A DNA stretch of 64,000 nt. It comes from Cinnamomum chago. Its lineage: Eukaryota > Streptophyta > Magnoliopsida > Laurales > Lauraceae. A model generated the notes under the pieces. The model ran no database searches and was not told the DNA's origin. It worked only from the letters and a program-made list of their open reading frames with translations. Positions 9,988 through 62,303 of this stretch are shown here, piece after piece. The position numbers and the translations under genes were made by a program. How positions within the stretch are numbered: the stretch's first letter is position 1; every line of letters begins with the position of its first letter. Location: positions 114,220,001 through 114,284,000 of the forward strand of contig CP142453.1 of NCBI GenBank assembly GCA_038049695.1, read 5' to 3'.

Positions 9988-9996
9988 TAGATTTTA
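9988..9996. repeat. Left 9 bp target-site duplication of the MULE
   Basis: TAGATTTTA directly before the left terminal repeat; the identical word follows the right terminal repeat at 21985-21993. Nine base pairs is the Mutator superfamily signature. Confidence 0.95.
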
Positions 9997-10134
9997 GAGG
10001 AATTTACCAAATAAATCCCTGTAGGTCCCTATACCACTCATGGGGTCCCAAGAAAACCGTATTATCGGATTAGGTCCTCAATGTCTGTATTTATATTTTT
10101 TTTTGTATTTTGGCTTTATGGCCGATATCGGCCG
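9997..10134 (+). repeat. Left MULE terminal inverted repeat
   Basis: It begins GAGGAATTTACCAAATAAAT and ends with the palindrome-containing GGCCGATATCGGCC at 10120-10133. It pairs with 21846-21984 with about 12 mismatches over ~137 positions by my count. Confidence 0.93.
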
Positions 10135-10984
10135 TTATGCGACATCCCTATTTCTCTCGTCCCGAGTGTGTTTTGCTCACAACTCTCATTTATTCCTCTC
10201 CTCGACTTTTGTATGGCGATTTTTTCCCTTTCAGAAACCATGTAAAGAAACTTCTGTGAATCGGTTGTTGGACTTCATTAAAAGGTAGGTTTGTACATTA
10301 AACACACATTTTAATGCACTATCTTCTCTAATGTGACATCGTAACATTGATTTATCTCCATTAATGCATTCTTGTTAACCCAAGATCTCTGTAAAATCCT
10401 CTGTCTTCATTAGAGTACCCGGTCTCTAAACCAGGCTTTCTTTAATGCTTATAGAAGAACTTTCTGTTTGAAGGGTTTGTGGAAAACTCACTTTCATCAA
10501 TAGAGTACCCATTCTCCTTTATTTCATTCTTGTTAACCCTAGAACTGTCGAAAATCCACACTCATCATGAATACCCTAGAACTGTTTGAGAGAGCGTCAT
10601 TTTGAAACATTCTGTGTAGTCGTTTTCAGGGTTCTGTTCAATCCAGCAGCTGGAGCTATAGTGGGTCGTGCATTCCATTTTATTTATGTTTAGTGTGCAT
10701 CAGTAAATCCATAAATGTTATTGTCTAGTTTGTATGTTTGTATATTTTTCTATATTGATCTTGCAAATATGGATACTTCAACGCCAGTATCTCATCCAAT
10801 TGGAGTTGGTTGTCTTGCTGATTGATGAACAATAGGAGAATATGTGGAATACGGTCTGAATACTTTTTGAATAACATCTAGGGACAAATGAAATGGGTCT
10901 AATACCGATCTGTTGTAATTGTCATCCTGAATCTGCCTATATTTTACTGATATCTTCATAATTCTCCTGTGATTTAATGATAGC
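10135..10984. other. MULE 5' non-coding region, transposase upstream sequence
   Basis: Sequence between the left terminal repeat and the transposase start codon. It presumably holds the promoter and leader, but I could not place a TATA box with confidence. Several similar 'gtctctaaacc/cctagaactg' patches recur without forming a clear array. Confidence 0.5.
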
Positions 10985-13533
10985 ATGTCAGACAGAGAGG
11001 TGTTGTTCATATTCCACTATGACGGTGACTTTCAATTTGACATCAGCCGTCCGGTGTACAGTGGAGGAAAACAAAAAATGAAATATTTATCGTCAGACAT
11101 CTCTTATCAATGCCTGGCTAACGAAGCAATGGAATCATCAAATTGGGATACAGTCATCCAGAATTTAAGCATGCAATACCTTCATCACAACGGACGGGCA
11201 TTCTCAATGGCTAGCATTGACGATGATAATGATGTTCGTCTTATGTTCAAAGCATCGGGAAATGAAACGAATGGGATATACTTGTACGTCTCTAATAGTC
11301 CGAACAACAATGAAAGTATAGGGGGAGAGGACATGTATGCCTACTAATTGTCTCACTAAATTTTAAATGCGAAATTAATTATTTATGTTAGCACTTGCTT
11401 ATTTATGCGCCGAATCATTGTAGGTTACGAAGGACCGCAGTAGGATTTAAGAGTCCAAAAATGCCAAGCAGGTCGTCAGCCAGTTTGAAGAGGGAACAAG
11501 TGAAGTTATCAACAAGTCCTCGAGAACAACCCACCGCTGATCTCCGCGATGACACAGACATGCATTATCCATCTGTGCGGGATGATGATGTATGCAATGA
11601 GGCGTTAGATGGTCATATCGACCTTGGGATGATGCGTGCTGATGATATCCATCTTAACCAACATCCCTCTAATGGACAGCTTCATTCAAAACCAATATTC
11701 AAGGCCGAAAGTTGCAGGGATGAAGTCAATCAAACCAATACCGATCTACGGTCTAATGAAATTCCAAAAGTTGATTCTGATGATAGAATGGAGCCTGATG
11801 ACATGGAAATGGAATTTGGCAACAACTCCGCACGAGAGATGAGGATTGGCCGTGTTTTTCCTGATCGACAGATGTTCCGGAATACGTTGGCGAAGTTTGC
11901 AATATACGGTAACTTCACTCTTAAACATTTGAAGACCAACATGACCAAAGTGACTGCACGATGCAAAGATCAGGATTGTCCATGGCGTATTCATGCTTCG
12001 ATTGTCGAATCAGGACCACAATTTAAAGTTAGGACGTACAATCCTAACCATCGATGCTCAAAGCCACTGATGGGCATGGCACATCAACAGGCAACCTCGG
12101 CGCTTATTAGAGAGTTCATCATGGAACGGGTCAGGCAGAATGTGAATTTGAAACTGAAGGAGATCATGAATGACTATCAGATGGAGTTTGGTTCAATAAT
12201 TAGTTACAGAAAGGCTTATATAGCAAAGGAGATGGCACTTTGTATTGTGCGAGGATCATATGAAGAGTCCTTCCAGCTGCTACCTCGTTATTGTAAGGAA
12301 CTTGAGTTGACTAACCCTGACACTGTGACAAACATAGATACCACTTCGGATGACCGTTTCAGAAGATTTTTTTGGGCGTTCGGACCGTGCATAAGATCTT
12401 ACACGTCTTCGTTGAGACCAGTGATTGCTGTAGACGGTTCACACCTCCGAGGCAAGTATCCAGGTGTGTTGCTTGTTGCCGTGACGCATGATGCTAACCA
12501 TAAGCTACTTCCCATCGCCTTTGCCTTTGCGGAAGCCGAGCGGCGCGATAGCTGGGAGTGGTTCCTTGCGAACTTGTCCATATCTCTAGGAGAGCCAACT
12601 AACCTTACTATTGTTTCAGACCGGCAGAAGTGTCTCATTCCAGCGTTGAAGAACACCATACCGCATGCAATGCACTGTTACTGCTGCCGTCACATTGCTG
12701 AGAACATCAAAGCTGCTTTCAGTGACGGGGCAATCGTGATGAAATTTTGGCTTGCAGCAACGTCATAGAGGCCATGCGAGTATGAGGCTTATATGACAGA
12801 TATCCGTGCAGTTAGCCAGGAGGCTTTCAATTACATTGATGCAATTAGGCGGCAACGGTGGGCAAATGCATACATAGAAGGTCGTCGGTACGACATGCTA
12901 ACTAGCAATGCAGCCGAGTGCACTAATAGTCTCCTAAAAGACACGCGAGTCCTGCCCATTACGAAACAAGTTGAGGAGATACGAGCAAAGTTAATGGACT
13001 TCTATCAAAAGCGGCATCTTCAGTCTGAAAGCATAACAACTCGTCTTACCCCGTATGCGGAGAAAGTTCTCAGTCAAGAAATGGATGAAGCTCGCCGATT
13101 GCATGTTCGTGTGGCTGGCATCGTAGAATTTCAGGTTCAGTCTGCGGAGTATGTTGACGTTGTTGATCTTGAACGGAAATCCTGCACATGTCGGAAATGG
13201 GAGATATTGGGTATCCCGTGTTGCCATGCATTGGCTGCAATGAAAATGAGAAACTACGATCCATACGAATTCTGTGAGCATTGGTATTTTGCGAGCACGT
13301 ATCGTACAACGTACAGTGAAGTGATTCATTCTACCCGTGACAGCAAGCAATGGGAGCACACAGCCGAATTGAGAATTATTCCACCAATGGCCAGTAAACA
13401 GCCCGGACGCCCGAAAAAGAACAGGATTCGAACTGAAGATATTGGCCGTGTTCGAAGGGCAGTAACGTGCTCAAATTGCAAGGGGAGAGGCCACAACCGT
13501 GGAAGTTGTCGCAATCCTCCCGTGCTCAGTTGA
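10985..13533 (+). pseudogene. MuDR-type MULE transposase, two exons, one in-frame stop
   Basis: Exon 1 is 10985-11334 and exon 2 is 11424-13533. The 89 bp intron begins GTATGC and ends TTGTAG, and joining keeps frame. The 819-codon product has an N-terminal PB1-like part (FHYDGDFQFD), a MuDR DNA-binding region (CKDQDCPWRIHAS), then the RNase H-fold core. The first Asp is in VDGSHL (~residue 454), the second in VSDRQKC (~516), and the Glu in AECTNSLL (~615). A SWIM zinc finger follows (CTCRKWEILGIPCCHAL, ~704-720), then a C-terminal zinc knuckle (CSNCKGRGHNRGSC, ~799). A TAG at 12766-12768 (~residue 565) splits the core before the catalytic Glu; the frame continues unbroken afterwards. Unless read through or supplied in trans, the protein is inactive. 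Confidence 0.93.
11335..11423 (+). other. Transposase intron
   Basis: GTATGC donor and ATTGTAG acceptor. Removal joins the exon 1 frame to the exon 2 frame through a split ATG codon. Without splicing, exon 1 ends at a stop at 11345-11347. Confidence 0.8.
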
Positions 13534-14515
<982 letters not shown>

Positions 14516-14544
14516 ATCGAGCTTGAAATTACGGCAGATATCAG

Positions 14545-15740
14545 TAATTAATACTACCGATATCGGCCATAGTAATACATGACCTGTTCAGTTAAAAAAG
14601 CCTGAGTTTGAATGTATGGCCGATATCGGTCATTTGGATGACCGATATCGGCCGTTCTGTACATGACCTGTTTTTTTATAGTCTCAGTTAAGGAAGCCTG
14701 AGTTTGAATGTATGGCCGATATCGGTAATTATTTATGGCCGATATCGGTAATTATTTATGACCGATATCGGCCATTCTGTACATGACCTGTTTTTTTATA
14801 GTCTCAGTTAAGGTGCCTGAGTTTAAAAGTATGGCCGATATCGGTCGTTTGTATGACCGATATCGGCCGTTCTGTACATGACCTGTTTTTTTATAGTCTC
14901 AGTTAAGGAAGCCTGAGTTTTAATGTATGGCCGATATCGGTCGTTTGTATGACCGATATCGGCCGTTCTGTACATGACCTGTTTTTTTATAGTTTCAGTT
15001 AATGGTGTCTGAGTCTGAATTTTTGGCCGATATCGGTCAATATTATGACCGATATCGACCGTTCTGTAAATGACCTGTTTTTTTATAGTCTCAGTTAAGG
15101 GAGCCTGAGTCTGAATGTATGGCCGATATCGGTCATTATTTATGACCGATATCGGCCATTCTGTAAATGACCTGTTTTTTTATAGTCTCAGTTAAGGGAG
15201 CCTGAGTCTGAATGTATGGCCGATATCGGTCATTATTTATGACCGATATCGGCCATTCTGTACATAACCTGTTTTTTTATAGTCTCAGTTAAGGAAGCCT
15301 GAGTTTGAATGTATGGCCGATATCGGTCATTTGTATGACCGATATCGGCCGTTCTGTACATGACCTGTTTTTTTATAGTCTCAGTTAAGGTGCCTGAGTT
15401 TGAAAGTATGGTTGATATCGGTCATTATTATGGTCGATATCGGCCGTATTAATACATGACCTGTTTTTTTATAGCCTCAGTTAAGGGACCCTGAGTTTGA
15501 AATTATGGCCGATATCGGCGATAGTTATACATGACCTGTTTTTTTCAGACTCAGTTAAGGGAGCCTGGGTATGTAATTATAGCCGATATCGGTGGGTATT
15601 ATGACCGATATCGGCTGTAGTAATACATGACCTGTTTTTTATAGCCCCAGTTAAGGAAAAATGTGCATGGAGTGATGGCCGATATCGGTTGTTATGTTGA
15701 CCGATATCGGTGAGTGTCTACATGGCATGTTTCTTTAATA
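14545..15740. repeat. Hairpin minisatellite, about 13 units of 75-100 bp, with CCGATATCGG palindromes
   Basis: The phrase 'catgacctgtttttttatag', followed by 'tctcagttaagg' and 'gcctgagtttgaatgt', recurs about every 97 bp, with landmarks from about 14578 to 15720. Between phrases most units hold two copies of CCGATATCGG in opposed context. In the best units (15119-15159 and the next) the 18 nt word ATGGCCGATATCGGTCAT is followed by TATTT and its exact reverse complement, a 41 nt perfect hairpin. The same palindrome is found at the inner edge of both MULE terminal repeats and near 21461. The array lies between the convergent 3' ends of the two MULE genes. Confidence 0.95.
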
Positions 15741-16003
15741 GTCTCAGTTATAAGTCAGCCTGTTTTCAACTAATCCACATCAAGAAACACAGACAACCAT
15801 GAAATTCTATACAAATGAAAGTTCTATACAGCCTGTCTAAATACAACCCATTGAGAACATTTTGAATGTCAAATTCTATACAAATGAAAATGAACACCAC
15901 AACCACCAATCTTTCTATACAATCTAAGTTATGAAGTCCAGTGATTCACATTTGATAACATGCAGACTAATCCACTTTCAAAGTTCCCGGCTGATCAAAT
16001 TCT
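15741..16003. other. MULE spacer, 3' region of the PMD-Ulp1 gene
   Basis: Short non-coding stretch between the minisatellite and the Ulp1 stop codon, with a small internal repeat (ctatacaaatgaaa twice). Nothing else supported. Confidence 0.5.
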
Positions 16004-19000
16004 TCATGGGAGTGATGCCAAGTGGGTCAAGCCCAGTCTATTAGCGTTCAATTGCCAACTCCGTTTGAAGAGTTCCACGACTATTTTGCTTCGAAAGTAA
16101 CGCATGTCTGATTGCTTAAAGGCGATGGAAAGCCGGTGGACACAGTGAGTGGCAAAGGCCATTGCAAATACTCCACAATCACTCGTATTGTTCTGTCGAG
16201 GGATGTCCGTCTTTTCAACTAGTGGCCATAGAAATGGGTTGCTCCACCCAAAATGGCTATACCATTCGGCCAACCATCCCATCTACATAAAACATCGGGT
16301 CTAAATGTCAGCAATGGACAGAAGAATTTGAAATTCGCGTTCGAGATAAACTGCCTCTTGGCATGGAGGAAGAAAAACTTACAAACTTTTGCGCATGTTT
16401 AAATGATCGGCGATCGCCTTCCATGCTATTGTAAAACTCCCATCTCTTCTCATCAACCAGTCCGACCAATAATGTGAAATGTGACCTCTGGTAGACAATG
16501 AATATCAGCGTTCGCGCTTCCCTCGCTTCCAACACCCTGTGCCCGTACTTCCCAAAAACTGCCTCCATGGCTGTGTCACCACTATCGCGCCACCAACTCT
16601 GCATACATTGAATTGATCAATGTGGGTACAATATTCCAATGTAAATATAATAAAGGATTTACCCAACCAGTGTTTAGTTTGTACTTACACAGACACTCGG
16701 GTCGGCAATGAAGCATGAATCACACCCAATTCTCAATATCTCAAAGTTATAATAAATGATGTTAGTGTCCATCCAAGTTCCCTCATCAAGGACATTCTTC
16801 AAATCATCTGCCTTGATCAATGTGCAAACATCACCAAGCTCATCTTTCCTGTAACAGTGAATATGACCAAACACACGTAAGCACTTCAATCCAACAAATT
16901 AACATGATCACCACTAAACCAACATACCTGTCATCGTAGTATTCTAGAAAACCTTTGAGGAAGAATTTGTCACCATCAGACAGCACGTAGTCGCTCCGAA
17001 CGATATCATGCGTGTAGTCTTCAAACTTCAACGGTATCTTGCGCATTCGGGGCAACCGTTTGATCCTCCATACCAATGACACAAGGGTGGCCAATGGCGC
17101 TGCAACCACCAAAGCAGAGTCACTGGATACCGTAAATGGGGATGCGAACAAATTCCTGCTGACTGGTGGGGTCTGAACATTTTCCTGGGGTGCTGGCTCA
17201 GTCGGGGGTTGTTCCCTGCTGCTACCTGATCCCTCGGCATTTATGCTCACGAGGTTCGGTTCCTCGACCGTGGATTTTCTTTTAGCAGATTTAGTCTTTT
17301 TAGCCGGACTTTTTTGCGCAGGCCTCTTGGTATGCTTAAATGTGATCAAGATTTTCTTCTCCGTGGCGTCATTATCAGACGCCGAGCTGCTGCATCCATC
17401 GAATGAGAAGTTCTCCCAATTCGTCCCAAAACCCGACTTAAACTTAGCTAGCTTTTTCGAAATTGACATGGATAGCTTGTCGATTGGCGTTTTCCTGCGT
17501 GCAGAACGTTCGAGGCTCCGTTCGATGCGTGCGACCATGTCTTGAGCCTGTTGATCAAAGAAGTAATTGAATTATCGACAGTTTGAAAAAAAAAATCAAG
17601 GAACTAGTGTAACAGTCAATTATAGGGTGTAATTGATATACATGCTTCTGTGGGATGGTGGGCTCATCCTCAGTGCGGGTCTCCTTTGCCGGCACCTCGG
17701 CCGTGGGGACATCAGATGCAGGGACATCGGACGCAGGCTGCTCCGTTGCCTCTCCTCTACCAATAAACATCAACGTATTCTCCGTATACCATTCCATGTA
17801 CTCTTCGGACTGCGCAGCTGCAGCACAAGCCTCACCTTGAAGTCCAAGCTGGGCTCTTGCTCCCCACGACGACACGACATCCTTATCCATCGTTGCCGCA
17901 TAATCGACAACAGACCTGAACGTCCTTTCTCGTCTTAAGATCGGCATTGTAAAAGGCGGTGGGACTATTTCTTTGAGCCCGAATTGTTTCATAACACGCC
18001 AAGTGTTGTGGCGCTCGACAATCCAATACCATATCAAAACAGTGGACGAATGTAGGAGAGTACGATCCACTTTAGAGACCTTTGAAAAAAACTTTGGGCT
18101 GTACCCTTCATATGGTTGCCATATGAACTGCAATACACATCAGCAGCGAAACAGTTAGTCCAGTATCTCAGCAAAATAGAATGCATATAATCGAACACCG
18201 AACTAAGGAGCTAGTCAATTTCTTGTTTTACCTCGTCAACTTTCAAATTGTTTAACTGTCCTCTCACCTCCTTGACTGAGGTGAGTGGTGGATTTTCGGC
18301 CAACCTCTTCATCCATGTCTTGCATAGTGGGAATTATATGTCCCCCTGCCACAAGTCTTTTGGCTTAGGACACCTTCCGATTGACATCCTTGTATAAGCC
18401 CATATCTGCACCAGATTACATCACAATAAAGAGTTAGTTCAAATTAAATTAAAAATTCAAACCAACAGTCACTATGAGAATAAAGACCTGTAATAGTTGT
18501 AGAGGCCCGGTTGGCGTCCTGCACAGGTGCCCTTCAAGCTCACGTTGCTTATCTTTCCCCTCTTCCACAGCAACTAGCTTCTCCGGACCCCATCGAGAGG
18601 CATTGGTCAACATCCTATACAGATCCGCGAGACAAGCCGGTGCCCATGCATACGGTTTAAATTCTTTGAACAGCTCTAGTATGTAGGCCGGTCCACGGGC
18701 ACCAGTAGTCTGCGAAACGAGCTGACCGGACACTAGAAAGAAGAGATAGGCTCGCGTTGCCCGGATCTCGTAATCCTTGTATTTTTTATGCTTCTTTTTT
18801 TTCTCAAGTTGGGCAGCTGAAAAATTGTCTTCAAGCCACTTGAACTTCACTGTTATACCATGGTAGTCACGCTTCTCCGGTCGAATGCCAAGTACCTCCT
18901 CGCACACCGACGCTACGAACTTCCCCGGGAAAGTTCGTCCAGCTACAGGTGGGCCATCTACGGGTAGGCCGTAGATGTATGCAACATCTTCCAGGGTGAC

Positions 19001-19410
19001 AGTTGCTTCACCCGACGGAAAGTGGAAGGTATTTATCTCCGGGCGCCACCTTTCAACTAGACCGGTTATTAGCGCATGATCAAAGACCATGCGATCGATT
19101 TCTGCTAGGTAGTGGAGGCCCGTCTGCCTCACGTATGCCTTTTGTTGTTTTGTTAGCTGCCATATATTTCGGTCCGGATTGGTTGGTATGCATCTCAGCC
19201 GTCCCAAATCCTAGCAACGTAACAATTGCCAAATGTGGTTAGCAAGTACAAAACGAATATATCCAATAACAATGTGCATCAATACTTTGAAATGTTTAAT
19301 TCATTTTGTGTGATACAGTATACCTCTCCTTGCCGAATCCCCTCCGACACGTGAAGGCTTTGGTTGTATAGTAGAACCTTCGGAGACTTGGGGGCTTGTC
19401 CTTCACCTTC
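16004..19410 (-). pseudogene. PMD-Ulp1 fusion gene (plant mobile domain plus C48 cysteine protease), eight exons, one in-frame stop
   Basis: Exons on minus: 19410-19324, 19210-18488, 18405-18232, 18127-17642, 17547-16928, 16848-16689, 16598-16383 and 16282-16004. All junctions are GT-AG and keep phase, giving 914 codons from the first exon I can place; the start codon was not found. Exons 1-4 are the plant mobile domain (INTFHFPSGEATVTLEDVAY; IWQPYEGYSP). Exon 5 is a basic, low-complexity linker with KKTKSAKRK. Exons 6-8 are an Ulp1/C48 protease: His in SHFTLLVGL (~790), Asn where Asp is usual in EFYNSM (~807), Gln in PRQNN (~852) and the nucleophile Cys in TSDCG (~858). A TAA in exon 3 (~codon 294, after WQGDI) truncates it. 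Ulp1 enzymes cleave SUMO; the role here is unknown. Confidence 0.9.
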
Positions 19411-21845
19411 CTGCAAAAGAATATGAATGTCGGTAACTTACAAACATACACGTTGTATGTGAATTCATTCAAGAAAAAATATAAAAAAAATTGACATAAA
19501 ACTATTTATTAAAAGTTCACATGTGTTATTTTGAAGCTTGCGCAAAGCCAGCATGAGGCTTCATATAAACAACAGGAGGTTGCAATGAAGTCTCTTGTTG
19601 AATTCTGCAGACAAAAGTCATTCATTGCAGAGATGTATGCAAACTTGGACTGTGACATAGCCTGTCGTAATGTTTTTTAAGACTTGGAAACCTGCTGTCA
19701 AAGAGCGCATCTCCAGTGAAATGTCTAATGTCTGTCATGCACATTATTGCATTGGATGGTTTGATCGCCATCATCCAGGGCATGGATGAGAGGATTGGAA
19801 ATTCGACTCCTGTTCTGGAATAAGGACCACTCTCCTCTCTCTCTACTAACTGACCTGCATAACTTCCCAAAAAAAAAAAAAACAAACCAACTTCCCACAC
19901 CACCACGAATAGGCGAGTTCTGAAAATGCATCTCTTAGAAAGGCACTAAAAGACAAGGCATTGAAACCTTTTAAGAAAATTCTGTATAAAGGATATGTAC
20001 AACCCAAATTTGGAATGGGGGTGTTCTGACTCTTCTTCTCCCCTCTTACAACAAATAAAATGAAATTATAAGTTATGGATAGAAATGAGAAACGATGCAA
20101 AGGAAATAATCATTTTGAAGTATTCTCAACTGAACATCATTGTAGCCAGCAGTAGCCTTATGCCTTCCGTAAATCTTTTCAAGTCCAGCAACAAACTGTC
20201 TATGGACTTCATCCACCCAAATAAAAAAAAATTTTGATTACCACTTAAGCAAACTGTCTATGAACTACATCCACCAGCCCAAAAAAAAAAAAAATTTGAT
20301 TACCACTTGATCATCATCATTAAAGCCTTATCCCATCAAACAGATGATTTGATTACCACATGAATTAGCTATAAAAATTACTTTCACATGAAATCGCGTA
20401 CTATACCCAGTGAGAAGTTGAGAACGAGAGTTTCTCCACTACTTATCTAACATACAAAACAATAATCTAACATACAAAACAATAAACCAAATTGAGCACT
20501 CTAACCTGGTTATTATCCATAAAGCCAAAGGTCCATCTAGATCATTGTAAGCCTAATTTAAGAAATTCTGTTTCCATGTAAATCATAATTCACACAGTTC
20601 AACAACGTGATTTACATTTAAGTTGCACCATTTTTTTCTAAATTGGGCTGTCATGACCAACTGCATGTAGTCAGAGTTACATGCAATAGGAGAAAGGTAA
20701 CTTGATTACAGGAAGTATCCAAAGAGGGCCAGAAGTCAGAAATATGGATGGTTCATGGCCTAGACTTCCACTGGGTTGATCCTTTCATGTTCACTGTCAA
20801 TTGTTGGCAGCATTCTTTCTTCACATCTGTTTGCATACAAACTGATGCCCATTAAGATCATCAACACAGTTAACATTTGATGTCCCTGACAGATCTACAG
20901 AAGTATGCATACTGTGATTGGTCCAAACCATTTACCATCTTTTGTTTACATAAGCCGGAGTGTGTTGCACTTGCCACATTAACTGAAGCAATTCAACAAG
21001 AGTTGTCCTTGAGTATTGATAAACACAAGGTGTATACTTGTGTTGAAACACAACTTGGGGTTGGGGGTTTGTAGCTTTGAAAGTTTGAGTTTAAGGAAGG
21101 CTGTTGGAGATTGAATAAACTCAAACTATTTGTGTCAGTTTTGTTTCAATAAAGGGTCCTGTCATCACCAAGTCTTTGTTTGATCAGGTCTTTACCTGTT
21201 TTGCACATTCATAGGTAGTGCCACAAATATAGGAAGTAGTGGTGGCTTAGTTGAGTCAGTTGAAGTTTTCTTTTAGTTGCAAGTAATCTGTAAACACATA
21301 TAAATTGGTGTAATCTGTTGGCTAAAATAGATAGAGCAATAGATTTGTGCGTCACAATAGATTCCACGACTCTAACTCCATTATTCTACAAGTCACGCGC
21401 ATCAACCTATAAGAAGCTATTCATAAACTGCCTCGTTTGGGGGAGATTTATAAAATATAGCCGATATCGGCCATATACAATTCAATATGTCAAATTTAAA
21501 GTTGGAGATCTAGATATCACATCTGCACAATGGGTAATGAAGATGAGAAGAAGATGGGAAGATGAGGAGAAGAAGAACAGAATAACAGAGCCATGAAACC
21601 GAACCCTAGAACAAGACGTCTTCATTCAAAATCTAGGGCACAAAGAAAAAGGGTTGAAATGAGGAAGAAAGGTACCTCCATGCGAGCCACCTTCGAAAAA
21701 TTGGCGCCAAAGTGCTTGGAACCACCTGCTTGGGACCACTGGAAAGGGGGAGACTGTTGGCAGCGAGAGACGAAAGGGAATGAGGGAAAATGATGGTCGA
21801 ACGAAAAGGGAAAGGGGCCACAGCGAGGGATTGCTGGAACTGATT
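19411..21845. other. MULE interior upstream of the PMD-Ulp1 gene
   Basis: Expected to hold the missing first exon and promoter of the PMD-Ulp1 gene, but I could not place them. Contains a duplicated block around 20190-20310 (aactgtctatg...cttcatccac, then a run of A and 'tttgattaccactt'), a 24 bp direct repeat near 20445-20480, and another palindrome copy (GCCGATATCGGCC) at about 21461-21473. A short RTE-like 'gatcatcatcattaaagcct' patch lies at 20309. Confidence 0.5.
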
Positions 21846-21984
21846 ATGGCCGATATCGGCCATATAGCCAAAATACAAAAAAAAATACAAATACAGCCCT
21901 TGAGGACCTAATCTAATAATACGAGGATTTTGGGACCCCATGAGTGGTATAAGGACCTACAGGGATTTATTTGGTAAATTCCTC
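21846..21984 (-). repeat. Right MULE terminal inverted repeat
   Basis: Reverse complement begins GAGGAATTTACCAAATAAAT; the inner edge carries GGCCGATATCGGCC at 21848-21861. Confidence 0.93.
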
Positions 21985-21993
21985 TAGATTTTA
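21985..21993. repeat. Right 9 bp target-site duplication of the MULE
   Basis: TAGATTTTA, identical to 9988-9996. Confidence 0.95.
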
Positions 21994-44700: not shown

Positions 44701-47700
44701 AAATAGGTGATAAATTAAGAGACTCGTTCGAGATGGTTTGGACATGTTCAATGTAGGCCAACCACGGTGCCAGTGAGGAAACATTTTCCTATGCAGGTTG
44801 ATGGCACCTCAAGAAAAAGGGGTAGGCTGAAGAGGAGTTGGAGTAGTTGGGATAGATATCAAGAAGTGCAACCTATCCGAGGATTGACCCATGATAGACC
44901 GGAATGGCAAAACAAAATACATGTTGAATATTAAAGAGTTTTCATGCTTTTGTATACTTAATCCTAAGAAGCACGGACACGGACACGAGACACGGACACG
45001 ACACGACACAGACACGCCGACACGGCATTTCTCAAAAAAGAAGGACACGGACAAGTCGGGGACACGTTAATAATAATAATATATCTAATTATATACTAAA
45101 AGATACTATCATTTTAACTTTGTAATCAATTTAGCGATCAAATAAATAAAAATTCAAGTACCACTATACCAACTAACAAACATATGCAATACAAAATTGA
45201 AACATACTTAATAATCATTAAACATGAAATATCCTTAGTTCTATAAAATCCATACAAAGAAAAGGGAGGATCATCAATTTCCCCTCCATTCCAAAAATAC
45301 AAAAAGAAGTCAATTTCCATCTAAAGTTTACTCAATTGATGCAACTTCAATTGCCTCATCATCACCATCAATTTGATCACGATCAACATCATCTGTAAAG
45401 ACCACGGTCTCCAACTCTGGCTCATCAAACGAGAGATTAGCAACCTCAAGTACCCCAACATCCTCTAAGGAATCATGTGTATCTCCTGCAATATCCCACA
45501 TCTTAGTCTCACCTTGCATATATTGTGGGGTTTTTCTTGATAAAAGACGTAGACTGCTATGAATAAAAACCAAGTCTTCAGCACGTTTTGGCGTCATCTT
45601 GTTCCTTCTCATGGAGTGCACAAAGGAGTAAGTACTCCAATTCCTCTCGCAACATGATGAAGAAGAAGGCTGCATAAGTAGCTTAAAAGCTAAGCTTTGA
45701 AGCATGGGTGCACATGCGCCATGGTTGGCCCTCCAACTCGATGGATCCACATGATATCGATCATTTAAAGAATCATACTCCCCAAATTCCCCCATTCTAA
45801 GCGAGAAATTGGCATACTCCATAATAACCATTGAGCGCTCCTCAGAAGTGGGGAAGTATTTTGCAAGACATTTCTTTCTCTCTCTAGAAACCTCCACATC
45901 TTTATGTGGAGGAACTTGACTCGGGTCCTCATGAAGCCATTTGTCTCTATAATACCTTTCACAAAAGAAAGAAGGATTTCAAAATTACTTGATAATAAAA
46001 AAATGTGTATTACGATGTAAGAATAAAAGAAAGCAATTCACTTGGGATTCAAAGAATGTGCCAAGCAATGGAGTGGGGTATTGTTTTTGTACTAACGATC
46101 AACAAGTATTTGGTGTACCACATCATAAAATCCACATGACAAATCATGCCGCTTCCCTTCATGCCTAAATATTGTGGTCTTCACTTTTTCAATCATTGTA
46201 TCCCACATGTCATACACCAAGTGAAGACAAGGTTTGTCCGTATCACAGATTCTAAGCATATCATAAATAGGCGATGTGAAGGAAAGAATGTAATCAATGG
46301 AATCCCACCAAATGTCATCTAACAACTTTTCTTTGACAAATCTTGCCGTCCCCACATCATCTTCTCGATAACAAGACCATTTGTCACTTATAACCATAGC
46401 TTGGAGACCCCGCTTTATAAGTTTGAATCTCTTAAGCATGACAATCGTTGAAGCAAAGCAGGTTTCTGCCACTGAAAGCAATTTCAAAGTAACAAACTCA
46501 TTGAACATGGCCAACCTCATAGAGTGATTCATGATAAAATGCTTTATGTGCATAACATCACCAACAATGTCTGATATCCAACTACATTCGCTATATGTCA
46601 ATTGGTTGTTCTCAACATTTTTTGCTGCACAAATGTTCTTCAAAGCAAGTTTGAGGGTGTGGACCACACATGGTGTCCAAATAATGTTAGGAAATTGTGA
46701 TTCAATGATTTGCCCCGCACCCTTACAATTTGGAGCATTGTCTGTAATCACTTGAACTACATTTTCATGCCCAACATCATTAATGACCTCCTTCATCAAA
46801 TTAGCAATGAAATATTTGTCTTTTGTTTCACCGGAACAATCACCAGCTTTAAGAAACATAGGCACACCTTCTGTAATAGCCATGAAATTGATTAATGGCC
46901 TCCTTTGTGAGTCACTCCACCCATCACTCACAATGCTTACACCCTTTTCCCTCCACGTGCCTTTAATAGGTTGCAATAATCTTTCAATGTTTGCCTTCTC
47001 TCTTTGGAGTAAACTTGTCATCAACATATTGTACATAACCGGTAAGTGGACTGTTGGCAGCGAAAGTGAAGGCATTCACAAAATGTGGGTTTCGTGCTAA
47101 GTGAAATGGTAAACCTGCAGAATAAAACATCCTAGCAATCTCGGCATGTAATTGATCACGAGCTCCTATATTAAATGCCTTCTCAATTGGATTTGAACTC
47201 CCACTTCCACTTGTCTTTATCTTCTTTGAGTCTAACCCTCCGTGCATAATACTATTCATACTCAGAGAATTAGAACTCACTGAAACATTAGGAACAGGCA
47301 AAGGTACTTTTTTTGGTGCATTGGCCTTCATCCTTGATTTTACTTCTTCCTCTAATTTTTGCATTTCAGAAGTATCTTTTGTTGTAATGCGTGAACATGC
47401 AACAATCCCACAGCCAGGCAATTTTAACAAGTGAGCCTTAACCCTTGTGTATGAGCTCTTTTTTATCTGATTGCAAAAATTACACTGCCAAGTAATATTT
47501 CCCCCTCCTTCATTAATTTCATCAAACTTGGTTACATATTTCCACAGAGGCTTATTTATATCTTCATCATTGGAGGGGTGTGAACTAGAGCCAGGAATGG
47601 AACTCATATTCCTAAATTCCAAATTGTCACATAGAGGTAAAGAAGCAGAGTTGGTCAATAAAAAAAAATTTATTTGATATAAAGAACAGATTTGATATAT

Positions 47701-49057
47701 AAACAGCATAAACAGATTTTCTAGATTCATGTAAACAACAAAAATCCATCAAAAACCCATCGCCCGGAACACAGTAGCACAAGCCTGGGAGGCAGTGTAC
47801 CCCACTGACCTAATCCATGATCTGACCTACTACTTAGGGTCGCCTAAGGGTGTGCCTGCAGATCCTTGGATCTGATCAATGATCAAATGGTTCCCCTGGC
47901 CCCACAGTCTCAAAACAAACAGCAAAAAGGGTCTTTCGCCTCTCAGATTTGATGCCACAAATTGGTGAGCCAACCGGGACCCATTGCACATGGGTCCAGT
48001 GCTACAGTGGTCGACCATGGGTCCTCCTTCAGATCCATGGCCCCGTTCCCTCATCAAGTGGGCCATGGGGTCCCACAACCCCAATCGACAGATACCGTTT
48101 GTATCAGGGGAAGAAAGTGCAGAATAAAAAAAACAGCAGTACCTGGAAGATCTTCTCCTCTCCTTCTTCCATATCGTTTTTTTTTTTGTTTTCTCTTTTT
48201 TGCTTCTTTTTCTAATTCGCTAGAAGATCTTCGAATGTTATTAGGGCAGGCTGGCAGCGGAAGGATGGCCCTTTGCTTTTAAGTTATGACCTTTTACAAA
48301 AACCCCCCTTTGCTTTTTTTTTTTTTTTTTTTCTCTTAACTTTATTTTTTTTCCAAGTAAAAGATGCAAACGTGTCCGGAACGTGTCTGGAACGTGTCTG
48401 AAACGTGTCAGGAATAAAAACATTAAAAAAAACAGGACACTCTTTTTTGCTTGTCCGACACGTGGCGGAGCGTGTCCGGATTCGACACGTGTCAGACACT
48501 GACACTCTGGTCCCGGAGAGGTGTCTGTGCTTCCTAGACTCAATCCTTAGACGTGCACGAGTTGCACTCTATTATGACTAAACTTGATTCAACTCATAAT
48601 TGGACAACACCCCTTCGGTAAACAGGTCTTAACTTTTCCAAATTATGTTTAAGTTGGGGGAATGGTGGCCTTATAGGTTATTCAGTTACCTATTTATTGG
48701 ATAGGGAACTGAATGACCTATATAATGGAACCGATTTTGTGCCAATTAATTCTTGTTTTTGACACTTGAATTAGGCACATCTTTGAAAATGATGGGTTTA
48801 GAACAGCAAGAAAATGATAGGTTTCACTAACCTTTTATTTTGTAGCAAGTTAGAACCAAGGCTTGTGTTATTTTCACTGTTTAGACTTAACGACATATAG
48901 ACTAGCAAATTAACTTCTCATAACAAGACTTAATGATCATCAATATAGCCTTATCCTAACAACTTGGGATGGCTAAAGAGCTCTTCCACAACTTGATTAA
49001 AAAAACTCCACCAACGCTAAGATTACACACCCCACCTTAAATATTGTGAACTATAAG

Positions 49058-57431: not shown

Positions 57432-57445
57432 CCCCCCCTCAAATT
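57432..57445 (-). promoter_or_regulatory. Polypurine tract
   Basis: Minus-strand ATTTGAGGGGGGG directly before the 3' LTR. The gag-pol stop codon TGA (57441-57439) lies inside it. Confidence 0.85.
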
Positions 57446-60400
57446 GATGCGGGTGAGTCAACGAGCATCAATTTGCCAACTAAGAACTGGTGCCGTGGCC
57501 GAGGAAGTCCCTTGGTAAAAATATCAGCAATTTGAAGACTAGTAGGAACATGAGGAAGAGTGATGGCTTCACGCACAAATGCATCACGTATGTAATGACA
57601 AGTCACTTCAATGTGTTTTGTGCGTTCATGGAAAACAGGATTTTCAGTAATCCGTATGGCACTGGTATTGTTAGCATAGAGAGGTGTGGGTCCAGATTGT
57701 GGAAATCCAAGCTCAGAAAGTAGACCCCGAAGCCAGACAATTTCAGAAGTGGCGGCCGACATCGCACGATATTCGACTTCTGTGGATGATTTGGAGACTT
57801 TATCTTGTTTCTTACACTTCCAAGAGATTAACGAGTCCCCTAAGAACATGCACCAGCCCGTGGTAGACCGTCGACTATCGGGGCAACCAGCCCAGTCAGA
57901 ATCTGAATAGGCAATGAGAGAAGTCGAATTGCCGACAGGAAAGAAAAGTCCACGAGATGGGGTATGGAGAACATAGCGAAGAATGCGCCGCACAGCAACG
58001 AGGTGGAGATGGCGTGGTTGTGTCATGAACTGACTAACCAGATTCACCGCATATGAGATATCAGGCCGAGTGATAGTCAAATAGATCAAGCTACCGACCA
58101 AACGGCGATACATTGTTGCATCAGGAAGAAGATCACCCGTATCGTGTGCAAGTTGAAGATTGGCCTCAACAGGAGTATCTACAAGAGTAGAGTTTTGAAG
58201 ACCAGCCGTCTCAATGAGATCCATAGCATACTTGTGCTGATCAAGGATAAGACCTTTCGCGGACTGATGAACCTCAAGACCTAAAAAGTATGTGAGAGGC
58301 CCTAAGTCTTTCATATGAAAAGATTCATGTAAGGAAGCTTGGAGATGAGTGATCATGCCAGAATCGGTTCCAGATATGATGATATCATCCACGTACACCA
58401 AGAGGACAGTAATCCCAATTGAAGAGCGATGCAGGAACATAGAAGGATCCGAGGCACTTTGAGAGAATTGTAGACGAATGAGAGCATCCCGAAATTTCTC
58501 AAACCAAGCGCGCGGAGCTTGCTTAAGACCATATAGAGAGCGTCGTAAGCGCGCACAGTCACCTGCCGAGACACCCGTAACTCCTTGAGGAAGCCGCATA
58601 TAGACTTCTTCCTTGAGATCTCCATGAAGGAAAGCATTCTTGACATCAAATTGATAAAGAGGCCATGAGTGAGAAGCCGCAATTGCAAGAACAGTCCGGA
58701 TTGTTGTCATTTTTGCAACTGGAGCAAATGTTTCTTCATAGTCGATGCCATATTCCTGTCGGTTGCCCAATGCGACTAACCGTGCTTTATAACGATCCAA
58801 CGAGCCATCGGCCTTAAGTTTGACAGAGAAAACCCATTTGCAGCCGATAGGTCTTGCAGAGGAGGGACAGGGAACAATATCCCAAGTATGATTCTGCTGC
58901 AGTGCATCTAATTCTTCGTGCATAGCCTTTCGCCAACAGTCATGCTTAACCGCCTGTAAGTAAGAAGTAGGAATAGAAATGGAAGAAAGGGTAGCAAGCA
59001 AGGATGTGTGAGTGAACCCATATTTGTCTGGAGGCTTAGAGACACGAGTAGAGCGTCGAAGTGGAGGTGGAGACGCAGCATCTGATGATGAACCAGGGGC
59101 AAGATCCTGTGCCGGCGAGGGATCCGGAGGGGGAGGCAGTTGTGGAACATCTCTGGGACGACGACGTTCATAAACAAGAAGTGGAGAAGAGATGGAGTCA
59201 GAAAAAGCTGGTAGATGAGAAAAAGAAGGTAAATCCGAGGAATGTGTAGAAAAAAACCATTGATTTTAAAAAAATGTGACATTTCTAGAAATTCGAATGC
59301 GGTTGATCACAGGATCATAGCATATATACCCCTTCTGGTGAGATGCGTAGCCAAGGAACGCACATTTGGCTGACTGAGCAGTTAATTTGGTACGTTCAGT
59401 AGGAGGAAGATGAACAAAACACACACATCCAAAGATGCGCATGTGGGTATAAGTAGGATCCTTATGAAAAAGACGAAAGTATGGTGTGTGATTTTGGAGG
59501 CGAGAGGATGGTAAGCGATTGATTAAGTGAACCGCAGTGGCTAAAGCTTCAGGCCAAAATCTCGCGGGAACTGATGATTCTAAGAGAAGAGACCGAACAG
59601 TATCGAGAAGATGTCTGTTTTTTCGTTCTGCAACTCCGTTCTGTTGAGGGGTATATGGGCACGATCGCTGCGATAAAATCCCATGTTGTTGCAAAAAAGT
59701 TTGAAATTGATGGGACATATATTCCCCTCCAGAATCAGATCGGAGAATTTTTATGCGAGCAGAAAATTGATTTTCAACATACGCCATAAATTTTTGAAAA
59801 GCATCAAAGACTTCAGATTTAGAGTGCAAGAAATATACCCATGTGAATCTACTATGATCATCAATAAAGGTGACAAAATATTTGAAATGTGTGTGAGAGA
59901 TTACAGGAGTAATCCCCCAGACGTCACTATGAATAATGTCAAAGCAATTAGAAGCCATAGTAGAGTTTGAGGGAAAGGGAAGAACTTTGCTTTTTCCAAG
60001 TTTGCAAACAGAACACTCATCAGAAATACGACTAAAAGAAATTGCATTTTTATTAAGACTACCAGTGTTTAACATCAAAGATAACAGTTTTGAATGAGGA
60101 TGGCCTAATCTATTATGCTAGAGCCTCCAAATATCTTGAGGAGAGAAACATGAAAAAGCAGAAATCTGTTTATTCTGAGAGAAAGGCATAATAAGAGGAA
60201 ACAGGCGTCCACACTTAGGCCCCTTCGCGATCACCGTCCCCGACACTGGATCCTGCACAACACAACCAGAGCGAGAAAAGGAAACATTACAATTATCATC
60301 AACAAGTTGTCCAACAGACAGAAGATTTGTGGTGAGGTGAGGAGATAGAAAGACATTTGTGAGAGGTAATGAATGAATGATATCACCAGTGGCTGTAATA

Positions 60401-61572
60401 GGAAGCTTTTGACCATCAGCAGTATGAACTTGCAAATTGCCATTGTATGGTTGCAGGTTAGTAAGATGAGTGGGGGAGGAGGTCATGTGATTGGAAGCTC
60501 CAGAATCAAGAAACCATATGGAGGAAGAGGATTGGTGGTTACCTGAAATGCCAAGTGCAGAAAAGGCATTTATGATCATTTGTTGAATAAGCTCAGGGGT
60601 GATCTGAGGAGCAGTATTGGAGGCAGTAGGTGGTGAAGGCATGACCGGTGTTGAAGGACTATCACTGGAAGTAGTAGCATCGGCAGCGTTGACATGATAT
60701 GCCCGTGGAGTGCGATTCTGTGGTCGCCTTCTGCAATCACTAATAACATGACCATTTGATTTGCAGTAATTACAAAACTTGGTCTTACACTGTGAAGCAT
60801 AGTGTCCATAACTCTTACAGCCAAAACATTGGATTTTGCTAAGATCCCTTGCAGGGGTTTGTCCTTTAGCAGTAGATGCAGGACCTTGGGAGACACCCGG
60901 GTTGTAACTGGCAATGGCAGGATATGCGACACTAGAAGAGGTTCCTGAGAACTGTTGCTTCAAAGCATGCTGAGTAAGTTGACTTTGTTCCTCTCGCAAG
61001 AGTTCATGAAGGCACTCATTTAGGGATGGAGATGGAACTCTGCTCATCAGATTAGAACGAATGATCTCATATTCAGATCTCAATTTCATGAGAAACTGAT
61101 CTCTATGAGAAGTTGCCTGTAATTGTTGTATTTCAGAAAGGGCTGCCTCAGAGACATTTAAGTACTTGATTTCATCATATTCTGCCCATAGGTTAAGAAA
61201 ACCCGTATAATAGTCTTGGATGGAAGAGGTGCCTTGGGAATATTGAGCAATCTCCAGTTCAAGTTGGTATTGTCGGGCAGAATTCCCTTGGTGATACACT
61301 TGTTTCAGATATTCCCACATCTCCTTGGATGTCTTGTACGGTTTGAGGTTCAGGATATATTGTGGTTCCACAGAACCAAGAATCCATGTTTTGATCTTGG
61401 CATCCTTGGTATTCCAAGAAAGTATTTTTTTCTCATCCTCCTTAGGTCGTGGATCCCATCCTGCAACGAGTCCCCACATTTCCTTTCCTTCAGGATATAC
61501 TTGAAGTTGATAGGACCAGGAAGTATAATTTTTTCCATTAAATTTGATCAATGTGATTTCAGATTTATCCAT
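57439..61572 (-). pseudogene. Copia gag-pol polyprotein, single frame, two in-frame stops
   Basis: One frame of 1,377 codons starting MDKSEITLIKFNGKNY. Gag has two CCHC knuckles (CFGCKSYGHYASQC at 249-262, CNYCKSNGHVISDC at 267-280). Protease has WFLDSGASNHM (DSG at 356-358). Integrase has HNRLGHP, CSVCKLGK, DDHSRFTWVYFL, RSDSGGEYM and PQQNGVAERKNR. Reverse transcriptase has YVDDIIISG, with CKWVFSVKLKADGSLDRYKA upstream. RNase H has SDWAGCPDSRRSTTG and SSTEVEYRA. TAG at codon 485 (60120-60118) replaces the usual Trp before HNRLGHP, and TAA at codon 769 (59268-59266) follows ISRNVTFF, where relatives usually have Glu. Otherwise the frame is unbroken, so loss of function is recent. Confidence 0.95.
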
Positions 61573-62303
61573 GTCAATAATTGATTAAGGACAGATCCTT
61601 TAAGACAGCACTCAGTAGCAATAGTATAAGAGATCAGATGAAGTAATCAAGCAAAACCAGAACACAGAGTGCAAAATACTGCACAAAAACAGTCCAGGCG
61701 ACCCAAAATTTTGCAGAGAAATCCTTACGTGGGGCCCACAGACAGATCTGAATGATAATCAGATCAGTAGCTAGAGACTAGGATTCAATTTCCTTTCCAG
61801 CAGTCCAAGTTTTATCCAAATCCGATCAAAATCAAAGATTTTGTGTGGCTGTGATGAAATCTATTTAAAGAAAGTGAATAATCACAAGAGGAAGCAAAAC
61901 ACCTACCTCTGCTCTCTGAGAATTGCTGAAAAAATCTCCAAAATAACCAGGAGAGATGGACGACCAAGGCTGAGGTGAGATTTGTGGATTGTGAGAAGAT
62001 CGCAGGTGGGCCACCAGTTGATCAGATGAGGAAACAGAGACGAATTGCCTTCGATGAGCACAGATCCTTGATCTGTGTGGAGAAACTCCTTAACCAATGT
62101 TCACAAATACCAGAGGAAGCAGGCGACCAGATTGGTTGCACTGTTCTGGCTTGATAATGCTTATCTAGGGTGGGCCACTTCTGATCACACCTTGATCTGA
62201 CGAATTCCAAAGCTTGGAAGATGAAGAGAAGATACCCAGAGAGTCTCTCAGAGACTATGACAACTTCCAATGCTTGGAAGATGGAGAAGATTTACTCAGA
62301 CAC

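Follow-up and report, generated by a model that had tools for sequence, protein, structure and literature searches.

A Mutator-like element with a plant mobile domain-Ulp1 gene and a family-specific palindrome array

VANC proteins bind short tandem motifs in the noncoding parts of VANDAL elements and remove methylation (PMC5735166, PMC10398659). For the KI elements, a non-TIR, VANC-type structure has been described (PMC2528002, PMC13317346), and KIU elements, according to a review, recognise motifs in related copies (PMC13317346). Two further lines of work concern the domains discussed here. Ikeda et al. speculated that plant mobile domains (PMDs) captured by Mutator-like elements (MULEs) act in anti-silencing (PMC5418596), and PMD proteins of Arabidopsis have been linked to a promoter motif, direct binding being left open (PMC7156037, PMC9899485). 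These statements and the comparisons below follow the accessible parts of the cited sources.

The element described here lies in a 64-kb stretch of DNA, which was analysed as a whole and is called the window. Like VANDAL elements, it is a MULE that encodes an extra protein and carries in its own noncoding DNA a short tandem motif differing between related families. However, the reader in VANDALs is VANC, whereas the candidate reader here is a fusion of a PMD with an Ulp1-type protease (PMD-Ulp1). The VANC21 and VANC6 motifs (YAGTATTAY, AGTTGTCC/AC) are not palindromes, whereas the motif of the window element is a perfect palindrome on a GATATC core and stands in close pairs; the inverted ends of the element are a further difference. 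Kaonashi (KI/KIU) elements share an Ulp1 domain that is reversed relative to mudrA, but they are non-TIR and carry a VANC-Ulp1 fusion, in contrast to the inverted ends and PMD found here.

PMD-bearing MULEs of grasses, Amborella and other plants likewise hold the domain within the element, often antisense to the transposase, although the accessible parts of the reports mention neither an Ulp1 part nor a motif array (PMC5418596, PMC6446971). In melon, rice and grapevine, Ulp1 sequences lie near the transposase of MULEs, TIR-MULEs included, as in the window element; the accessible parts of that report mention neither a PMD nor a palindrome array (PMC2528002). MAIN and MAIL1 with the DOWN motif resemble the present case in that a PMD protein is connected with both a DNA word and silencing, but they are host genes without a protease, and their word, CATGCAGTTT, lies in the MORC1 promoter. 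The letters of CATGCAGTTT are unlike GATATC, and a link to the DOWN motif was rejected. A search of the openly licensed literature found no paper joining PMD, Ulp1 and Mutator or MULE, and we make no claim of priority. The array looks like a private address label, which PMD-Ulp1 could read, perhaps averting silencing of the element.

The element and its copies

The Mutator-like element spans positions 9997-21984 of the window, with exact edges. Its two ends (9988-10138 and 21843-21993) are 89% complementary over 151 nt with the 9-bp duplication counted in, and the inverted repeat proper is about 142 bp long. The terminal repeats and the perfect 9-bp target duplication of the preliminary description were thus both found (Table 1). 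The transposase on the plus strand, also claimed there as MuDR-type with a SWIM finger, was recovered by its domain matches (MULE, E = 2.2e-18; MuDR DNA-binding domain, 4.5e-16; SWIM finger, 5.4e-11). With these domains, the 9-bp duplications and the TIRs, the element is a TIR-type Mutator-like element of the MuDR group. The PMD-Ulp1 gene opposes the transposase on the minus strand, and the two genes are convergent. Each of them holds one premature stop in the window copy, an in-frame TAG at 12766-12768 in the transposase and an in-frame TAA in PMD-Ulp1. Therefore, this copy is not intact and cannot serve as the full-length reference for which it had been taken.

Table 1. Features of the element, in positions of the window
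Feature	Position	Strand	Remark
Left target-site duplication TAGATTTTA	9988-9996		Perfect copy of the right one
Left TIR	9997-10138	+	Palindrome inside at 10122-10131, 125 bp from end
MuDR-type transposase gene	10985-13533	+	First ATG 10985; DBD, MULE and SWIM domains
Plastid psbB (photosystem II) fragment, captured	14139-14498	-	Inside element; Pfam PSII E = 2.6e-36
Central tandem array	14519-15721		~96-bp unit, 22 exact CCGATATCGG sites
PMD-Ulp1 exon 9	16004-16282	-	C48 catalytic Gln and Cys (QNNTSDCG)
PMD-Ulp1 exon 8	16383-16598	-	C48 catalytic His (SHF); Asn in place of Asp (EFYNS)
PMD-Ulp1 exon 7	16689-16848	-	Spliced model
PMD-Ulp1 exon 6	16928-17547	-	Basic linker; no selection detected within family
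PMD-Ulp1 exon 5	17642-18127	-	PMD ends here
PMD-Ulp1 exon 4	18232-18405	-	Premature TAA at 18334-18336 in window copy
PMD-Ulp1 exon 3	18488-19210	-	Main portion of PMD
PMD-Ulp1 exon 2	19324-19410	-	Spliced model
Palindrome copy in long first intron of PMD-Ulp1	21461-21470		One CCGATATCGG site
PMD-Ulp1 exon 1	21676-21681	-	ATGGAG; conjectural
Right TIR	21843-21984	-	Palindrome inside at 21850-21859, 125 bp from end
Right target-site duplication TAGATTTTA	21985-21993		Perfect copy of the left one

The left end was searched for in the host genome (1.06 Gb), and 40 places, the window's included, were scored out of 191 candidates; the other 39 left ends are 93-96% identical. We read 11 copies in full, the window copy and ten others, which are 10.2-12.0 kb long. 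All of them have a perfect 9-bp duplication and contain the PMD-Ulp1 region and the array, and their TIRs show an ungapped identity of 76-94% over 140 bp. An antisense Ulp1 exon lies 2-9 kb inside 36 of the 40 left ends, again counting that of the window. The last Ulp1 exon occurs in at least 76 genome rows at 79-100% identity, 69 of them without a stop, which is a lower bound because 150 of 1056 candidates were scored. All counts from the genome searches are lower bounds of this kind, taken from one genome in which a few sister families were read. The element belongs to one high-copy family, whose members share their ends and have the PMD-Ulp1 gene in between. As for copies with the same ends that lack the gene, by which the preliminary description could have been contradicted, there are none among the 11 read, whereas four of the 40 left ends have no Ulp1 exon in the compared 76-row list.

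All splice borders are retained in 8 of the 11 copies, and the other three lose one each. Four copies (c2_106, c10_65, c9_6.4 and c10_60) have a PMD-Ulp1 frame with neither stops nor frameshifts, and in the other seven this frame is broken. Despite its open frame, c10_60 has lost one splice donor; c10_65 has a stop in transposase exon 1, and c9_6.4 is the one copy in which neither gene has a stop or a frameshift. In the alignments, six copies (subfamily A), to which the window copy belongs, have the psbB stretch and the window-type long first intron, and the other five (subfamily B) are without either.

The PMD-Ulp1 gene and the selection acting on it

PMD matches fall on two exon frames of the window copy (E = 2e-40 and 1.9e-11), and a Peptidase_C48 match falls on its last PMD-Ulp1 exon (E = 8.8e-9). 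The opposing gene that had been described is therefore present, but the spliced model comprises nine exons, bordered by GT/AG, instead of eight; of these, the 6-nt first exon is the least secure. The spliced protein of another genome copy contains a complete PMD (PF10536), with profile positions 1-346 of 347 matched at E = 1.1e-69, and a C48 match over profile positions 95-211 of 217. The spliced PMD-Ulp1 protein gave no match to DUF1985, which we take to be the VANC domain; only PMD, C48 and a weak C57 appeared at E ≤ 10. We rejected the Kaonashi label on the ground of the inverted ends of about 142 bp and of a fusion partner that is a PMD with no DUF1985 match. The kinship with Kaonashi/KI that had been suggested thus fails in two of the three features tested, the ends and the domain, and holds in the orientation of Ulp1 opposite to mudrA.

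Among solved structures, SENP1 is the nearest to the protease in sequence (E = 3e-9). In the alignment, His, Gln and Cys of the two proteins coincide, and the Asp of SENP1 corresponds to an Asn. Across 48 rows of homologous Ulp1 exons, many of which are near copies of one another, the catalytic His is kept in 43 of 44, Gln in 47 of 48 and Cys in 48 of 48, and the triad Asp is replaced by Asn in 43 of 43. The exceptions are L026, which has Thr instead of His, and L030, with a stop codon at the Gln position. Because Cys-His-Asn is the catalytic set of papain, it is possible that the Ulp1 part is active. For the PMD, the search for a solved structure returned nothing credible (best E = 0.52).

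Simple pairwise dN/dS over the 11 copies was 0.287 for PMD-Ulp1 and 0.379 for the transposase. We also compared nonsynonymous to synonymous ratios within the family with a neutral expectation, in which the mutation spectrum was fixed by simulation (1000 simulations). The PMD stood at 0.43 of neutral (0/1000), the whole PMD-Ulp1 gene at 0.52 (0/1000) and the transposase at 0.59 (13/1000). The values for the linker (0.80, 318/1000) and the Ulp1 part (0.65, 152/1000) were not significant. In subfamily B, the PMD was at 0.28 of neutral (0/1000) and Ulp1 at 0.45 (150/1000). The whole gene in subfamily A was at 0.81 (147/1000), not a significant departure, and the subfamily A copies look like decaying insertions. 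The PMD and the transposase are under purifying selection within the family, and the maintenance of the PMD by selection was borne out.

Between distant families with a measurable dS, dN/dS was 0.09-0.15 for Ulp1 exons 8 and 9 and 0.09-0.16 for PMD exon 3, which are rough values because dS is 1 or more; between close families, that of Ulp1 was 0.25-0.38. Several pairs are saturated. Both the PMD and Ulp1 are under purifying selection between families. The dN/dS check proposed for the protease in the preliminary description thus showed purifying selection between families and none that was significant within the family, so the protease is kept over longer times.

The palindrome array and its counterparts in sister families

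The palindrome GGCCGATATCGGCC forms a tandem array in the interval that separates the 3' ends of the two genes, and it recurs inside each end of the element. Exact CCGATATCGG sites number 25 in the window, all of them within the element, compared with a mean of 0 in 100 shuffles. There are 22 at 14557-15710, that is, 4.6-5.7 kb from the left end, one in each end and one at 21461. Many of the central sites are paired at 22-23 bp. The central array was absent from the preliminary description. Genome-wide, CCGATATCGG forms 589 close pairs (8-16 bp between sites), compared with 18 for the reversed pattern. Among the matches listed, 50 distinct pair places all fall on C1 in six clusters, each of which is at most 12 kb from an Ulp1 exon of the window family.

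A site lies 125 bp from each end in all 11 copies (126 bp at one left end). It is followed by a second site 22 bp further in at 7 of 11 left ends and 44-45 bp further in at 5 of 11 right ends, those of the five subfamily B copies. Close spacings between GATATC cores in the family are mostly 22-23 bp, with a single 21, 44 or 55 in five copies. When 81 array units were anchored on a word of the spacer, not on the palindrome, the palindrome was 98.6% conserved, the linker 78.2% and the other spacer 79.8% (p = 3e-7 over positions).

Sister loci, whose last Ulp1 exon is homologous and 33-73% identical, mostly have arrays downstream of it but with other words, and the words of these related PMD-Ulp1 families are mostly built on the GATATC core (TCGATATCGA, GGGATATCCC). 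We surveyed 48 rows with a homologous Ulp1 exon (47 loci; L048 repeats L024). In 42 rows, there is a repeated palindromic 10-mer downstream, centred on GATATC, that was reached by none of 100 shuffles. This word is CCGATATCGG in 11 rows, all of the window family, TCGATATCGA in 28 (20 from the L001 family and 8 from others) and GGGATATCCC in three (L028, L029 and L060); L023, L026 and L048, counted among the 42, have only two exact sites each. In L024 and L030, the repeated palindrome was reached by 1 of 100 shuffles. No exact repeated palindrome was found downstream of the Ulp1 exon in L027, L044, L049 and L061. By eye, L027 has the near-palindromes GTTGATGTCAAC and GTTGACATCAAC 21-22 bp apart, and L044 and L049 have inverted pairs of another word; L061 has no array in the 1.4 kb read. 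None of four control Ulp1 loci without the homologous exon has such a repeat.

The close GATATC spacings in the sister families are 22-23 bp in L025, 23 in L058, 22 and 44 in L059, and 22 and 44 (some 42 and 45) in the L001 family. L028 and L029 have 32-33 with 52-54, and L060 has 44 with 52-53. Pairs of GGGATATCCC number 183, compared with 0 for the control, and those listed are nearly all 33 bp apart; some of the listed places (e.g. C1:1302691) have no Ulp1 exon in the compared lists, the comparison not being systematic. The shortest spacings (22, 33 and 44) come close to multiples of 11 bp, which is an observation and not a formal test, as the families are related by descent and the longer steps, of 52-54 and ~74 bp, do not fit.

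The palindrome is conserved at 0.927 and the spacer at 0.819 in L028/L029 (11 units), whereas in L059 the palindrome (0.920) is no better conserved than the spacer (0.906; 5 units), so that the excess conservation in these families is weak. In a tree built from 26 distinct sequences of exons 8 and 9, the window family is placed among the TCGATATCGA families, with a weak support of 0.79-0.87 for the order. Based on this position, CCGATATCGG may have arisen by a one-letter change in both half-sites simultaneously. CpG content was considered as a shared reason for the words and rejected, since GGGATATCCC is without CpG.

Candidate readers of the palindrome

By eye and from the coordinates, the transposase and PMD-Ulp1 genes run towards each other in the window family and in L001, L024, L025, L026 and L030, all of which have the array downstream of Ulp1. 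Among the matches listed, and with the GGGATATCCC and L027 families left out of the comparison, the sister transposases are 78-83% identical to that of the window family in the C-terminal part and 79-88% in the DNA-binding region. The closer sisters L024, L025 and L030 are 62-74% identical to the window family in PMD exon 3 and 48-63% in exon 5. PMD-Ulp1 is favoured as the reader because it diverges faster between families than the transposase, which is suggestive; the transposase could also be the reader, since it differs between families too. We consider, with a probability of about 0.5, that the element carries its own family-specific array, which PMD-Ulp1 reads, probably to counteract silencing in a sequence-specific way, as VANC proteins do in VANDAL elements.

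This reading involves three modules, namely the transposase, the PMD-Ulp1 protein and, acting in cis, the array of family-specific palindromes. PMD-Ulp1, probably dimerised by way of its PMD part, would bind the palindromes, and sites in phase on the DNA would allow several dimers to sit side by side. The Ulp1 part would then strip SUMO, or a like modifier, off silencing proteins on the element, and the genes of the window family, and no others, would thereby escape silencing. The earlier supposition that the cargo edits SUMO marks or silencing for the element would take a concrete form in the family-specific palindrome array.

More tentatively, and with the balance somewhat against it, the PMD could be a DNA-reading domain that binds nnGATATCnn as a dimer. 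Many MULE families would then have a PMD-deSUMOylase with a private phased array, that is, a sequence-addressed SUMO eraser whose specificity and palindrome change together, independently of VANC. If reading by PMD-Ulp1 is true, it would be a second, protease-armed kind of sequence-specific anti-silencing in plants, and pairs of array and protein could be used to direct chromatin at sites of choice. Because different PMD-Ulp1 proteins occur naturally with different palindromes, the idea lends itself directly to tests in which proteins and words are exchanged between families.

It is rather unlikely that the array is a binding platform of the transposase, at the ends and in the middle, with another role for PMD-Ulp1. 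The site 125 bp (once 126 bp) inside both ends of all 11 copies is where a transposase could bind, the transposase and the array occur in the same elements, and the listed sister rows show a difference of 12-21% in the transposase DNA-binding region. In Ac and En/Spm, too, transposase sites form subterminal arrays. However, 22 of the 25 sites of the window lie between the genes and are not subterminal, and PMD-Ulp1 diverges more than the transposase (78-88% identical), as if it carried the changing specificity, although this point is only suggestive.

An improbable alternative is that the array is a regulatory or insulating stretch (terminator, enhancer or boundary) read by a host factor, with drift and concerted evolution accounting for the differences between families. 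In the window family and, by eye, in L001, L024, L025, L026 and L030, it is flanked by the 3' ends of two genes, which would suit such a role, and tandem repeats homogenise unaided. Against this, the two half-sites differ jointly from family to family around a constant GATATC middle, and the ends of the element contain the same sites; a host factor of fixed specificity would give no advantage to a different word in each family.

Gene-piece capture is frequent in MULEs. It is nevertheless very improbable that PMD-Ulp1 is neutral captured cargo and the array a chance satellite: such capture has been described (PMC2528002), the window family carries the psbB fragment as well and the PMD-Ulp1 frame is broken in 7 of 11 copies, but this passenger reading is disfavoured by the purifying selection on the PMD (0/1000) and, between families, on Ulp1, by the presence of PMD-Ulp1 in 36 of 40 left ends and by a palindrome that is more conserved than its spacer.

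A plastid psbB fragment within the element

The Mutator-like element carries a captured fragment of the plastid psbB gene, which matches the photosystem II family of Pfam with an E value of 2.6e-36. Alignment of the 11 element copies indicates that this stretch is common to the six copies of subfamily A, and it is unaligned in the five copies of subfamily B.

Arrays in related Ulp1 families

In two distant Ulp1 families (loci L044 and L049), units of ~114 bp contain GTCGGYGATGACCTTA as inverted pairs, as read by eye. These pairs, a different kind of word, occupy the same position as the palindrome arrays of the related families. Two related families, L059 (1426-1992) and L001 (3034-3306; both in gene orientation), have a second tandem array with a unit of ~101-103 bp downstream of the palindrome array.

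Other coding stretches

Judged by eye, the hAT-like transposase pieces of the window include a BED-type finger and dimerisation-like ends, and three stop-to-stop pieces make up the Ty1/copia-type stretch. On C10 of the host genome (59768590-59801066), a complete plant mobile domain (PMD) is present in three adjacent long frames (597, 499, and 526 aa), which are perhaps host PMD genes.

Features in the window
Feature	Position	Strand	Basis
Captured psbB fragment	14139-14498	-	Pfam match
hAT-like transposase, in pieces	45328-47748	-	translations judged by eye
Ty1/copia-type retrotransposon coding stretch	57439-61584	-	translations, by eye
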